Source of the DNA: Owenia fusiformis | Taxonomy: Eukaryota; Annelida; Polychaeta; Sabellida; Oweniidae | NCBI GenBank assembly: GCA_903813345.2 | Contig: CAIIXF020000008.1 | Span: 4,287,341-4,351,340, forward strand | DNA length: 64,000 nucleotides | Direction of reading: 5' to 3' | Part shown: in pieces, positions 2,734 to 44,243 of the stretch | Layout of the letters: every line of letters begins with the position of its first letter | Numbering within the stretch: the stretch's first letter is position 1 | Translations under genes and position numbers: made by a program | Notes under the pieces: generated by a model | Seen by the model: only the letters and a program-made list of their open reading frames with translations | What the model was told of the DNA's origin: nothing | The model's database searches: none

Positions 2734-3066
2734 TTATCCCACCGAACGAAGTTCATAGGGATATAGAGAAGCTGTCTGTCTGTTTGTTCGTCCCTCCATT
2801 TGTTTGTTTGTATAGATGACAGACAATTCAAATACATGTACCAGTAGATGGATTTGGTTAAAATTTTATAGGTTTATGCCTTATGGGTATAGAGTCACTG
2901 CTCGAGAAGGAATTTTCAATATGGCTGCTCAATTCAAAATGGTCACCATTTTTCATAAAAAATGTAATCTTTGATAACTCATATACCAGTTAACAGATTT
3001 GGTTTTTAATTTATATGCTGATACCTTAGGAACATAGAAGTCCCGAACCACTGAATTCCAAAATGG

Positions 3067-5271
3067 CATACCTGCCAACCTCTCACGTTTTTTTTAAAAA
3101 AAACAGGAGAATCCAGGAGATATTTTGCAAAAAACAGGAGAAAAACAGGAGACTTTTACTGAAAAAAACAGGAGAAAACAGGAGACTTCTTTTAAAAAAC
3201 AGGAGAAAACAGGAGGTTTCTTTTAGAAAACAAGTTACCATCTAAAAAACAGGAGAAAACAAGAGACTTTCAGTCTAAACAGGAGATTTTCTTTAAAAAA
3301 CAGGAGAAAACAGGAGACTTCTTTTAAAAAACAGGAGAAAACAGGAGGTTTCGTTTAGAAAACAAGTTACCATCTAAAAAACAGGAGAAAACAGGAGATT
3401 TTCAGTCTAAACAGGAGATTTTCTTTAAAAACAGGGGAAAACAGGAGACTTCTTTTAAAAAACAGGAGAAAACATGAGGTTTATTTTAGTAACCCCCCTA
3501 TCACACCAAACTCGTTCTTACCCGTTCTTGCCAGTCCTACGAAAACGTCATAAAACGGGCTCAATCTTGCTGTGGTCGGGAAATATGTCTGAAATAATTA
3601 GCTTCTTCGTTCTTAAACAGTCTTCAATACGTCCTTCTCGTTCGCAGTTCGTTCAGGTCGCACCACGTCGGTGTGCAACGTAGTAGAACGCGTCCCTTAG
3701 TCTAGAAGGTCAACATGACCTGAGTACAGAACGTTATGGTCGCCATCGAATTTTGAATCGATTCAAAATTCTAAAATCACATTCCCGTCTGAGAACGATC
3801 ATAAAGTTCGTAAATAGACCTTAGAAAGTTGCAGCTACGTTCATTCCGTTCGCACACAGTTTTGAAGAACGCAGTGGCAACTTGTTTGGTGTGATAGCTA
3901 TATTTTTGCTAACTCGTTCATAAGCAGTGTTAAATACGTTCTCAATCAGTTTAAACCCGTTTGCAATTAGTCGTTCTCAACACGTCCTCAGACAATACAA
4001 CTCGTTGTTAAAACGTCCCTAGTAGGATTGAAGTACGACGGTTCCGTTCGTAGTACGTCCAGCTCGTCGTTAGTACGTTGTCACTCGTTCTAATTGTAGA
4101 ACTTGACGACCACGAGAACATTTTGAGCATTGTTTAAGTTCTAGAGGACCTTCCCGTTCGAGTACGTTCGATGAAGTTTGTTAATAGATCCCAAACGGTT
4201 CTTAGTAGGTCCAGTCCGTTCGTACACAGTTGAAGCCCGTTTTTGAGAACGTAGTGAGAACTAGTTTGGTGTGATAGTAGGGTAAACAAGTTACCATCTA
4301 AAAAACAGGAGAAAACAGGAGATTTTCAGTCTAAACAGGAGATTTTCTTTAAAAACAGGAGAAAACAATTTATTTTAATATAATAAAAGCTTGAGAAAAC
4401 AGATTATCTTTAAAAACAGGAGAAAACAGGGTATTTTATTTTAAAACAGGAGAAAACAGGATATTTTCCTTAAAAACAAGAGAAAACAGGATATTTTCTT
4501 TAAAAACAGGAGGAAACAGGAGACTTCTTTATAAAACAGTTTAAAACATAGGGAGTATCGGTATCGATGTTGCATCCTGGGAGCCAATCCTCCTTGGTCC
4601 AGGATGGAAAAACCGGGGGAAAAACCAAAAAGCTTACCGTAAATGTGACTGATAAATCTCAATCTTTGACAAACTTCAATGGTAAAATCATTCAAACTTA
4701 TTTAACATGATTTCTCATAATGTATATACATCCTTAATCTTGGTAGGCTTACGCAATCGTGCATAAATAGACAAAACTATTCTTACCCCCGTTTCACGGA
4801 CATACTTGCGCAGATTCTTATCGCCTCCACTCAGGAGATTATCTACGTAATACGCATGCGCTAGGATCGTAATAAAGGATGGATTCGCTCTTACTGATTA
4901 AAATTGTTGCGCGTGCGCTAATTTCGTTGTTGTTGATTGGACATTTATATTAGATTAACTTTGTTTTTCATGATTAGATGTCGCTCGAGTTAATTGACTT
5001 TTATGTAAGATACTGGAGACGATCGATTAGTACTCGGATTCAAGTTAAAAATCGAGAGGTAAGAGGAAAAAACGGGAGGACACAGACAAAATCGGGGGAT
5101 TTCTACCTAAAACATGCGAAGTTTTTTGTAGAAATCGGGGGAAATCGGGAGAAAAAATCGGGAGATGATGAAAAATTACAAAATTAGAAAATCGGGAGAT
5201 GACAAAATTGCGCAGGAGATGGGTTAAAAAAACAGGAATCTCCCGATTTAAATCGGGAGTTGGCAACTGTG
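3067..5271 (+). mobile_element. DNA transposon nested in H1
   Basis: Ends CATACCTGCCAAC and, on the other strand, CACAGTTGCCAAC: 10 of 13 positions match without gaps. AAATGG flanks both sides (3061-3066 and 5272-5277). Removing it restores AAAATGG-CTACCATTTTTT, which resembles the undisturbed sequence at about 26223. The interior is mostly A-rich repeats of AACAGGAGAAAACAGGAGAC and, near the right end, of ATCGGGAGAT. The superfamily is uncertain (hAT-like is possible). No intact transposase seen. Confidence 0.6.
3493..4282 (+). mobile_element. PIF/Harbinger-like MITE nested in the nested element
   Basis: 790 bp flanked by TAA on both sides (3490-3492, 4283-4285), the 3-bp target expected of PIF/Harbinger. 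The terminal inverted repeats CCCCCCTATCACACCAAACT and CCCTACTATCACACCAAACT differ at two positions. The interior is rich in GTTCGT/ACGTCC motifs. A second copy of the right end (TTTGGTGTGATAG) lies internally at about 3883, so the element looks like two related halves in tandem. The small ORFs here are not genes. Confidence 0.8.
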
Positions 5272-5641
5272 AAATGGCTACCATTTTTTGGTAAAAAAAT
5301 GTAATTTTTCATATTTCAAATACCAGTTGATGGATTTGGTACAAATTTAATATGCTGATACTTTAGGGACATAGTACTCTGCTCAAAAGTTAATATTCAA
5401 GATGACCAGCATTATTTGTTAAAAAATGTAAAATTTTCAAAATGACTGTTGAATAAAAAACTGGTCACTCTCGAATCAGTTGTTGGCAGCTTACATCATG
5501 GGTGTATATTTTGTTCAAAAGAGACAATACTGCTCTCCTACTTCCTGGTTACGTCTATCATGTAATGTCCAAAATGACTATCGATTTAAAAGAATGTTAG
5601 TTCGGTGGGATTTTCTACTCCGTAGACTTGCTGCTTCCTAG

Positions 5642-26039: not shown

Positions 26040-26424
26040 TTATCCCACTAGACGAACAAAGATATACATAAGCCATCCATTGTTCGTTTGACAGTCCGTT
26101 CGTGTGACTTGGCAAAAAACTCAAAAACTGGTAGACAGATTTGGTTCAAATTTTATAGGCTTGACGCTTATCGGCATAGAACCTCTACTCAAGAAGGAAC
26201 TTTCAATATGGCCACTCATTTCAAAATGGTTGCCATTTTTCATAAAAAGGGTAATCTTTGATAACTCAAATACCAGTTGACTGATTGGGTTCAAATTTTA
26301 TATGCTGTTGCCTCGGGACATAGGATATTTGTTCAATAAGAAAATTTCGAGATGGTGGCTATTTATCAAATCATGTTTTGTTCGGTGGGATTTGCTACTC
26401 TGTGGAGTTGCTGTTTTTTACTAA
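26040..26424 (+). mobile_element. Helentron/HINE-like element copy H2
   Basis: The smallest near-complete copy, 385 bp. 5' TTATCCCAC with a 4-base insertion before CGAAC; 3' GTTCGGTGGGA, then the hairpin GCTACTC-TGTG-GAGTTGC and the terminus CTAA followed by T. Interior is collinear with H1 outside the latter's insertion (CAAAATGGTTGCCATTTTTC, ATACCAGTTGA). Confidence 0.75.
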
Positions 26425-37797: not shown

Positions 37798-39776
37798 CCT
37801 TTGCAGAAAATGTCAATAATCAAAATTTGAGAGATTAAAATACTTGTGAAAAATTGTTAAATATGAAATGACTAATCTAATTAATTTTTTATTCCTGACT
37901 TTAGAATAGTCCTTCTAATGACTTTAGAAGTCCTTTAGAATAGAAAAAAATGTATATATATGGTTGATATTTTAAAGATAAGACTCAGAATAGGTATATC
38001 TAGATTTACAATTTATTACTGGAATAGTACATTGTCTGAAGGGGTCTATTTACCCTGAATTTATCAGCTAGCTACATTACCCTCTGTTTATAACAGATGA
38101 TTTCATATTTTTCTTACTGATAAGATTTTAACCATCTGTGACGTAGCTTGCATGGCATATTGAGAGTTTTTTTAAAGCGAATGTTAGCGGAAAAATCAGT
38201 GTCATGATTTTTTCTACAGACGTCTATTAGGTATAGGGTAGCTCATAGAATATAACAATCTGTATCTCAGAGTGTAGACATGGTCATCTCTTTTAAAGAT
38301 TGAAAGGGTATGTCTGGGGGTCAGTCAATTTTCTAAACTCAAGGAGTTAGTACTTTTAATAAGGGCTTCAATTTTTACATAATTAATGAGTATTAAAGTG
38401 GCAGTATTATTGTTAATACCATCCCTCCTAATATTTGTTATTAGAATATTATAATTTATAATGATAATTGTTAGAAAATTATACATAATTTATAATGATA
38501 ATGTATTAGATTAACATTTACCAGATATAAATCAGGTAAGATAGATATGTTGTTTACTATTTTGGAAACAATAAATAAGCAGATAACTTTAGAATATTAT
38601 TCTAATCCAGATAATTGTTTTGCTGTCCTATTTCTAGATGAATTTCATTTCATCTGTGAAAATAACATTGACTAACTAAAATAATTTATAGCAATGAATT
38701 TAGTAGAATATTTGGATGTCCCTCATACAGATGACTTTTAATGGCATATTAAAGTTTTCCTAAAGCCAACAAGCCAAAACAGTATATTTTGTATTTTAGT
38801 GATCGATTTGAATCAACGAGTTTTTATTGTGATGCACAATTTATAGCATTTATAGAATTAGAATTGATTATACTTTTTTCAACTTATAAATTTCTTTAAT
38901 TTTATGTTTGAATTACCACTTTAACGGCACTTGTTAACTGAAGGACTGGTGTTTACTTAAAGGGACTTGTTTATAACAATACATTAAGATTTTTATAACT
39001 TAATTGATGTTATTGTTAGTTTGACCTAAAATATCATGATTGTGTTATATAATTTATTCAAGAGCAACTTAAACACTGCTTTAAATAAATGTCCCTGAGA
39101 TCAACAGAAAGGAACAGGTGTTCAATTGTGAACTGAAAGTTGACCAGTATGTATTTATTTCAACACCAGGTGGCTAACTGGGGTCAGACTTAAACTTCCA
39201 GATAATCATTTGCTCTTATTATATTCCTTATTTATCCAACGGTTTATTTAATACCTGTGGCTTAGTAAGTGTTCTGAACAAACGAAATGACATCCGATCC
39301 GGGGATTCCTAAGGGCCTATTACATTAGTAGACAAAGGGGGTGAGGTCTCAGACCTAGGCACATTTTTGTGTTTTCATCTGATCAGTGTTACCCTGCTTC
39401 GGAAATCCCCACAACAGTCTTTGGCATGACACAAGATCACGTGATATGCAAATGAGAGAACCCCGTTGTTTTTCCAGCAGAACAACCAAAATAGATGCAG
39501 ACAATCTTCATTTCAGAATGTTTTGTGATTAAAATTTCCTAAATGATCAAAAAGATATTACATTATCGGGATATATTGGTTTTACTTACCAATCAATAAC
39601 ATGTGCGGATATATTTAGCTCTGGACATAATGTCCAAAGGGGATGACAATGATCATCAGAAAAATACTTTGTGCAACTCCTTATTCTATTGGTTGATAGA
39701 ATAGTATAAAGTAAAATACAGTAAAAAACTGAATGCCAAATATATCGAATTTGCGAACAAGGCACGTTCCAGATAT
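37798..39776 (+). other. Intron 18 between UNC93A and the Helitron-like cluster
   Basis: About 2 kb of AT-rich DNA with no coding signal. Only short local duplications (TAGAATATTATAATTTATAA-type, about 38430-38510). Confidence 0.5.
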
Positions 39777-41010
39777 ATAATTATGACTCACAAAAATGAT
39801 AGGTGTTTGATTTATGACATTTCTAAAACGTTCAGATAATCACTTGGTCTTATTATCACATATTTATTATTATCCCATCGAACGAAGTTCGGAGGGATAT
39901 AGGGAACGCCTCCGTTCGTCCGTCCGTACGTCCGTCCGTACGTCCGTCTGTCCGGGCGATAACTCAAATACCGTTTGCCCGATTTTGTTCATATTTTATA
40001 CACAGGTGCCCTATGAGGGTAGAAGTTCTGCTCGAAAGCCAATTTTCAAAATGGCCGCTCATTTAAAAATGGCGGCCATTTTAGTGCCGATTTTACAGTA
40101 ATTTAGGTGCAATATGTAAAACTGTAATAGCAATATGTTTTAAATGTAAAAAAAATTATATAGGACATTAATAAAACTAGAAATGTAGATATCAAAAAAG
40201 CACATGGCAGCCATTTTGAAAAATGGCGGCCTTTACTCGTTCTTTTACGATTTTTGCTGTAACTCGAAAAGTAGTGGAGCGATTTTGTTCATATTTGGTA
40301 TGTGAATACTATAAGCATGGCACACTGTCTAATGACACTTTTGGTAGAAGGCGGCCATTTTGAAAAATGGTGGCCATTTTGAAAAATGGCCGCCATTTTA
40401 ACTTATTTTACTAAAACTCGAAAAGTAGTGGAGCGATTTTGTTCATATTTGGTACGTGAATACGTATAAGCATGGCACACTGTCTAATGACACTTTTGGT
40501 AGAAGGCGGCCATTTTTCAAAATGTCCGCCATTTTAACTTATTTTACTATAACTCAAAAAGTAGTGGAGCGATATTGTTCATATTTGGTATGTGAATACT
40601 ATAAGCATGGCACACTGTCTAATGAGACTTTTGGTAGAAGGCGGCCATTTTTCAAAATGGCCACCATTTTAACGTATTTTACTATAACTCGAAAAGTAGT
40701 AGAGCGATTTTGTTCATATTTGGTATGTGAATATTATAAGCATGGCACACTGTCTAATGACACTTTTGGTAGAAGGTTCCCGTTTTGAAAAATGTTCGAT
40801 GGGATTCGCTACGCTTTGGCGTTGCCGTTGTTCTAGTTTAATAAATATAATAATTCTGGTTTATATTATGATGACTCACAAAAATGATAGCTGTTTAATT
40901 TATAACATTTCTAAAACTTTCAGATAATCACTTGGTCTTATTATCACCCATTTATTATTTAATAAATATAATAATTCTGGTTTATATTATTATGACTCAC
41001 AAAAATAATA
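39777..41010 (+). repeat. About 120-bp tandem repeat hosting the H3 insertion
   Basis: Units outside H3 read TTTAATAAATATAATAATTC, TGGTTTATATTATGATGACT, CACAAAAATGATAGCTGTTT, ..., CAGATAATCACTTGGTCTTA, TTATCACCCATTTATTA. One copy lies left of H3 (39777-39869), one right (40837-40957), and a third begins at 40958. The 40957/40958 junction is the empty equivalent of the H3 insertion point. Confidence 0.9.
39870..40836 (+). mobile_element. Helentron/HINE-like element copy H3 with empty-site proof
   Basis: 967 bp: TTATCCCATCGAACGAAG at the 5' end, then a CGTCCGTCCGTA microsatellite, then a module of about 150 bp repeated (AAAAGTAGTGGAGCGATTTT, GTTCATATTTGGTATGTGAA, AGCATGGCACACTGTCTAAT, GGCGGCCATTTTGAAAAATG), then GTTCGATGGGA, the hairpin GCTACGC-TTTG-GCGTTGC and CTAG. 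The neighbouring empty site reads ATTTATTA-TTTAATAAA, exactly the two flanks joined, with no target duplication. ORFs across it are products of the repeats. Confidence 0.85.
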
Positions 41011-42782: not shown

Positions 42783-44243
42783 TTATCCCATCGAACGAAG
42801 TTCGGAGGGATATAGGGAACGCCTCCGTCCGTCCATACGTCCGTACGTACGTACGTACGTCCGTCCGTCTGTCCGTCCGTCCGGGCAATAACTCAAATAC
42901 CGTTAGCCCGATTTTGTTCATATTTTGTACACATATACCCAATGGGGGAAGAACTTCTGCTCGAAAACCGATTTTCAAAATGGCCGCTCATTTAAAAATG
43001 GCGGCCATTTTAGTGCCGATTTTACAGTGATTTAGGTACTGCATATAAAACTGTAATAGCAATATGTTTTAAATGTAAAAAAAGTTATATAGGACATTGA
43101 TTAAGCTAGAAATGTAAATACAGAAGAAATACCTGGCAGCCATCTTGAAAAATGGCTGCCTTTGCACGTCTTTTTACGATTTTTGCTGTAACTTGAAAAG
43201 TAGTGGAGCGATTTTGTTCATATTTGGTATGTGAATACTTTAAGCATGGCACAATGTCTGATGACATTTTTGGTAGTAGGCGGCCATTTTGAAAAATGGC
43301 CGCCATTTTTACGTGTGTTATTTAACATTTTTTACTGTAAGTCAAAAAGTAGTGGAGCGATTTTGTTCATATTTGGTATGTGAATACTTTAAGCATGGCC
43401 CAATGTCTAATGACATTTTGGGTAGTAGGCGGCCATATTGAAAAATGGCCGCCATTTTTACGTGTTATTTTACATTTTTTACTATAACTCAAAAAGTAGT
43501 AGAGCAATTTTGTTCATATTTTATATGTGAATACTATAAGCATGGCACACTGTCTAATGACACTTTGGGTAGTGGGCGGCCATTTTGAAAAATGGCCACC
43601 ATTTTTTACGTTTTTTACTCTAACTTGAAAAGTAGTAGAGCGATTTTGTTCATATTTGATATGTGAATACTTATGAGCCTTGCACACTGTCGCATGACAC
43701 TTCGCGTAATAGGTGGCCATTTTAAAAAATGGCTGTCATTTTTACATTTTTTACTATAACTCAAAAAGTATTGGAGCGATTTTGTTTATATTTGATATGT
43801 GAATACTTAAGCATGGCACATTGTCAAATAAAACTTTAGGGAGTAGTCGGCCATTTTGAAAAATGGCCACCATTTTTATGTGTGTTATTTTACATTTTTT
43901 ATTATAATTCAAAAAGTAATAGAGCGATTTTGTTCATATTTGATATGTGAATACTGGTAAGGATTGCATACTGTCTTATGACATTTTGGGTAGTGGGCGG
44001 CCATTTTAAAAATGGCCAGTATTTACATGTATGCGTGGGCGATTTTTTTAAAATTTTATATGTGGCTACTTAAAAGCATATTACTTCTGCTGATGACAAC
44101 TTGTCTAGTGAGCAACCATTTTGAAAATGGTGGCCTTTCTTATGGGTTTTATTTTACGATATTTGCTATATATTTTGTTTGTAAAATGCCAGCCATTTCT
44201 GTTCGATGGGATTCGCTACGCTTTGGCATTGCCGTTGTTCTGG
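42783..44243 (+). mobile_element. Helentron/HINE-like element copy H4
   Basis: 1461 bp. 5' TTATCCCATCGAACGAAG, microsatellite CGTACGTACGTCCGTC, about six 150-170-bp modules each ending in GGCGGCCATTTTGAAAAATG-type palindromes, then GTTCGATGGGA, hairpin GCTACGC-TTTG-GCATTGC and CTGG followed by T. Same orientation as H1-H3. Modules near the left are more like H3 than those near the right. Confidence 0.82.

Follow-up and report, generated by a model that had tools for sequence, protein, structure and literature searches.

A well-preserved HINE-type element beside its empty site in Owenia fusiformis, and the TNN^TT insertion target of its family

H3 is a non-coding element of 967 bp (39870-40836, forward strand, in the TTATCCC...CTAG register) found in the stretch of Owenia fusiformis DNA analysed here (64,000 nucleotides, hereafter the window). 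It is very probably a HINE, a non-autonomous Helentron (Helitron2-like), whose movement would depend on a Rep/helicase(/endonuclease) protein supplied in trans and on a rolling-circle, single-stranded DNA intermediate. H3 is otherwise an ordinary member of this class, well preserved and with its filled and empty sites existing side by side. Two features go beyond routine HINE anatomy: the insertion target of its family, TNN^TT, and a likely partner with antisense genes.

H3 splits one unit of a ~121-bp tandem repeat (2.2 copies), and the adjoining unit is empty at 40957/40958. In the window, BLAST places this host repeat at 39774-39871, 40837-40960, and 40958-41010, with a further partial match of 34 nt at 39189-39222. 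Junction alignment and BLAST show the left flank (39777-39869) to be a truncated copy, whose final bases TTA fit TNN^TT. The right flank (40837-40957) is the second copy, and its end is the left half of the empty site, whose right half is a third, partial copy (40958-41010, from BLAST); all lie on the forward strand. When the left flank is joined to 40837-40868 and aligned with the next repeat copy, 117 of 125 columns are identical without any gap. The longest exact match spanning the junction is 41 nt (40950-40990), and the empty site itself reads ATTTATTA^TTTAATAAA (40950-40966). The original prediction, that H3 lies inside a tandem repeat whose next copy is uninterrupted, therefore holds. 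BLAST against the 498-Mb genome finds the host repeat at the H3 locus only. It is therefore host DNA separate from the element, and the possibility that it is an element component is ruled out.

At this locus junction offsets of 0, 1, and 2 all yield the identical empty sequence. Therefore H3 can be read as TTATCCC...CTAG, TATCCC...CTAGT, or ATCCC...CTAGTT. The two extra T are either owned by the element or duplicated, and their side of origin is not assignable. Both termini had been predicted to be fixed as TTATCCC and CTAG; the empty site does set the boundaries, but within two T. Note that the ATCCC...CTAGTT register is formally equal to a 2-bp TT duplication.

H3 has the anatomy of a HINE. 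Its subterminal inverted repeats (subTIRs) are 12 bp long and asymmetric: the 5' subTIR ATCCCATCGAAC is found at 39872-39883 (from sequence and fold), while 31 nt trail the 3' subTIR GTTCGATGGGAT (40794-40805, from sequence). The complementary inverted repeat GTTCGGAGGGAT (39887-39898) begins 3 nt beyond the 5' subTIR and pairs with it as a 5' hairpin with the loop GAA (-6.6 kcal/mol, z -2.8). The predicted hairpin before the 3' end also exists, GCTACGC-TTTG-GCGTTGC at 40808-40825 (-5.4 kcal/mol, z -2.65). For each of the two hairpins, 2 of 200 shuffles fold equally well. The 5' hairpin is followed by a microsatellite of TCCG/TACG units (39911-39954, TRF), a core (39979-40378), and three central tandem repeats with a unit of 135 bp (40372-40776; TRF, 93% matches); a microsatellite and central tandem repeats are features of some HINEs. 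By alignment, the core has antisense homology to DNA downstream of Rep-PIF1-endonuclease ORFs in two genomic elements. The 3' terminus is CTAG (40833-40836), followed by TT; all these features are given on the forward strand. CTAG followed by T, predicted as a transposition hallmark, is true of the H3 copy but not of the family consensus, which is CTGG as seen from pattern listing and comparison of copies. CTGG ends 40 of the 48 copies examined and is found in all matches listed for the CTRG pattern; in the family it is followed by TT. The CTAG of H3 is thus a private change, and other subfamilies also end in CTAG.

The family is large. Its exact 5' head, TTATCCCAYCGAACGAAG, occurs 2,451 times in the 498-Mb genome, and the reversed control pattern does not occur. 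Heads without TT add 61 more (28 + 33), so that TT stands at the left in 2451/2512 heads. The best forty copies (the range covers best candidates only) are 89-96% identical to H3 across most of its length, and the family tail reads GTTCGATGGGATTCGCTACGC...CTGG. H3 itself was delimited by genome copies, BLAST, and flank comparison. The window contains two further elements of this group, H1 (2734-5641) and H2 (42783-44243). H1 is a related 2.9-kb element with a CACCG-type head, a CCTAG end, TT at each side, and AAACAGGAGA repeat arrays. H2 is a longer copy of 1,459 bp (ATCCC through CTGG); its central repeats number about six at ~149 bp each, and TT stands at each side. A piece of the family 3' part with a diverged tail (GTTCGGTGGGATTTGC...) is found at 26177-26415 of the window.

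Some copies are arranged locally. At C1:21645114-21647224 three heads with a spacing of ~1,040 bp share an identical 5' flank, TGAAAACAGTTT, with one tail nearby among the matches listed; element and flank may be arrayed in tandem here. Another two copies (L041 and L042, C12:11.70 Mb), separated by 1,193 bp, have identical flanks and seem to have arisen by tandem duplication of element and host DNA. At least 4 of 48 sampled insertions (L084, L092, L004, and H3) are within local tandem arrays and so have empty sites at the same locus.

Empty sites were searched by comparing the joined flanks of 44 copies with the genome, and seven copies besides H3 have them. Matches of 100% are found at five loci for L006 (over 122 bp), nine loci for L007 (121 bp), and fourteen loci for L080 (120 bp). 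L084 matches at 100% over 121 bp and L092 at 97% with one gap, each in an empty unit of a local array, as in H3; L008 matches at 99%. Query and target are equal in length for L006, L007, L080, and L084. Four of the seven represent independent dispersed loci on other chromosomes. L041 has CT in place of TT at its left, whereas the TT-joined query matches the empty relatives of this copy at 98-99%, as a later point mutation would explain. At all eight copies the net gain is the element plus two T, and no target bases are deleted.

The claim that no target bases are duplicated stands for anything beyond TT, for which a duplication is formally equivalent. The joined flanks of the eight copies show no further duplication, and flank sharing past TT in 48 fetched copies is not above that of shuffled pairing. 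A target site duplication (TSD) longer than TT is therefore ruled out by both the flank comparison and the empty sites. In 18 copies the 5' dinucleotide is altered, and the 3' side is TT in 18/18, so no pair shares a non-TT duplication.

The target extends upstream of these T. Positions are counted back from ATCCC; in the TTATCCC register, position -5 thus precedes the insertion point by three bases. This position is T in 97 of 98 unselected 5' flanks (and in 45/48 fetched copies). In the same 98 flanks, T or A occupies position -4 in 90%, and 76% have A at position -3. On the other side, the first two bases of 99 3' flanks are each T in 99%, and no further strong preference follows. The T-N-N part is host sequence at each of the seven other empty sites; thus the insertion target of the family is T-N-N^T-T.

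A search for the autonomous partner starts from 58 Helitron_like_N matches in the genome. The motif RGSPHxH, which is the diagnostic Helentron Rep motif (Thomas et al.), is found in 23/23 fetched loci having a recognisable Rep motif. Two related copies lack it, one on C4 (27.75 Mb) and one on C5 (30.81 Mb), which are 95% identical over 5.3 kb. Both encode Rep, PIF1 helicase, and an Exo_endo_phos (AP-type) endonuclease (PF14214, PF05970, PF03372), the protein set of Helentrons. In the C5 copy the Rep motif reads RGAMHFH, so this is not a typical Helentron Rep by the published diagnostic. About 400 bp of homology to the H3 core exists downstream of the endonuclease ORF in both copies, antisense and collinear, and in the C5 copy it runs on into a full H3-type 5' end, likewise antisense. 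An antisense arrangement has a precedent in Helentron-Da-40, a Helentron with a minus-strand protein (PMC4067079).

These homologies make the C4 and C5 elements likely, rather than certain, partners of the H3 family, because the 3.2 kb searched upstream of the C5 ORF does not reveal the opposite, H3-type end; local alignment scores there are at shuffle level. A genome search with this upstream region gives no further copy and no left end. H3 ends are also absent from 8-9 kb scanned downstream of three other RepHel elements and, in two large RepHel groups (L100, L101) and the C4 copy, from the short 3' regions covered. Among the RepHel loci examined in the genome, none proved to be a complete autonomous partner bearing both H3 termini. 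A 17-bp inverted repeat of the C5 copy was set aside as an element end because its 5' arm is inside the ORF. The head beside the C5 copy could instead be a nested HINE, but the core common to both C4 and C5 is then harder to explain. Taking these copies as candidate partners, we give about even chances to the combined reading that the family has a spaced T-N-N^T-T target, near-invariant over thousands of insertions, and an endonuclease-bearing Helentron partner with genes antisense to the transposition ends, and that the HINE corresponds to the 'downstream' end of this partner with tandem repeats.

Many RepHel elements of the genome (L009-L028, L072) have open frames of ~3,000 aa and often exist on small contigs, and the one scanned has OTU and Herpes_teg_N-type protease domains. 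At C5:30.80 Mb (L078 4100-5900), the N-terminal part of the ORF of the endonuclease-bearing RepHel contains a locus-specific array of repeats of ~345 bp.

Some features of H3 are shared with canonical Helitrons (Helitron1). These are the CTRR 3' end, the 3' hairpin near it, and, in 76% of copies, an A just ahead of the insertion point. However, Helitron1 starts with 5' TC and has no inverted repeats (PMC5148889), while H3 starts with TTATCCC and has subTIRs. Asymmetric inverted repeats together with a 5' hairpin are defining for Helitron2/Helentron (PMC5148889), and the Rep proteins seen in this genome carry either the Helentron RGSPHxH or a fused endonuclease. A canonical Helitron rather than a Helentron derivative is therefore improbable.

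Slightly less probable still is a cut-and-paste MITE with terminal inverted repeats, moved by a DDE transposase and creating a 2-bp duplication of its TT target. Copies do read TT-ATCCC...CTRG-TT, a 12-bp inverted repeat is present, and alignment can't decide against reading the two extra T as a TT duplication. However, the 3' inverted repeat is 31 nt inside the end and ahead of a hairpin, so the ends of H3 are not symmetric. The 5' hairpin, microsatellite, and central tandem repeats are those of HINEs. The CTRR|T ends also argue against a MITE, as does the connection to RepHel-endonuclease elements. The 3' TT kept in the 18 copies mentioned above is a weak argument in the same direction, as post-insertion mutation also explains it. 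Least credible, at a negligible level, is that the second repeat copy once carried the element and lost it by precise excision: one locus alone can't order events, but seven other copies have empty sites, including the four at independent dispersed loci, and precise excision is not expected for copy-and-paste elements.

The insertion of Helitron/Helentron type proposed in the original prediction is thus supported by empty sites, the 3' hairpin, CTRR before T, subTIRs, the 5' hairpin, and the HINE layout. For Helitrons and Helentrons it is established that transposition follows a rolling-circle route, that a Rep/helicase acts in trans, and that hairpins and subterminal repeats have their own roles. 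By structural analogy, a Rep/helicase(/endonuclease) protein would act in trans on H3-type elements, with the subterminal repeats and the two hairpins probably serving as start and stop signals. The element would be carried by a single-stranded rolling-circle intermediate, and the strand would be joined into host T-N-N^T-T without duplicating target DNA. H3 very probably entered a single unit of a tandem repeat that was already present at this locus, the next unit being a fossil of the state before insertion.

The thousands of copies of this family, and its numerous exact empty sites, amount to a clean in vivo record of Helentron-type integration sites. In earlier HINE work the target was left unclear by runs of T, while nearly every copy of the H3 family has T fixed at the third base upstream of the junction. 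Within this genome the HINE core is also tied to a Rep-helicase-endonuclease element, a tie that could reveal how such elements acquire central tandem repeats.

A literature search with the subTIR letters returned only unrelated papers among the matches listed. Cg_HINE of the Pacific oyster (PMC7492417) has the same order of 5' subTIR, complementary inverted repeat, 4-nt microsatellite, central tandem repeats, 3' subTIR, and 3' palindrome. It is also alike in its TT insertion preference, lack of TSD, and thousands of dispersed copies. Its microsatellite is of GTCC type and its central repeats are mostly 140-180 bp (PMC7492417), compared with 135 bp in H3; the likeness is one of published layout, not of aligned sequences. 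HINE-Mo/DINE-1 and their Helentrons (PMC4067079) share with H3 the 3' palindrome, paralogous empty sites without TSD, and a TT target in which the count of T is ambiguous, as likewise reported for mite HINEs (PMC4067079). The subTIRs of HINE-Mo/DINE-1 are similar in length to those of H3, 12-15 bp (palindromic in HINE-Mo), and their distance to the terminus is 2-4 nt at the 5' side and 38-60 nt at the 3' side (PMC4067079). In H3 the 3' subTIR is 31 nt from a CTRR end, and its family differs in having TT at both sides in nearly all copies and an extra fixed T in the target (TNN^TT). Another similar system is FoHeli1/2 (Helitron2) of Fusarium oxysporum (PMC5148889), with asymmetric inverted repeats, hairpins at both ends, and empty sites. 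While its 3' end (ATATTTT, compared with CTRR in the H3 family) and target sequence differ, a spaced T is found in its target (TNAT^A) as well.
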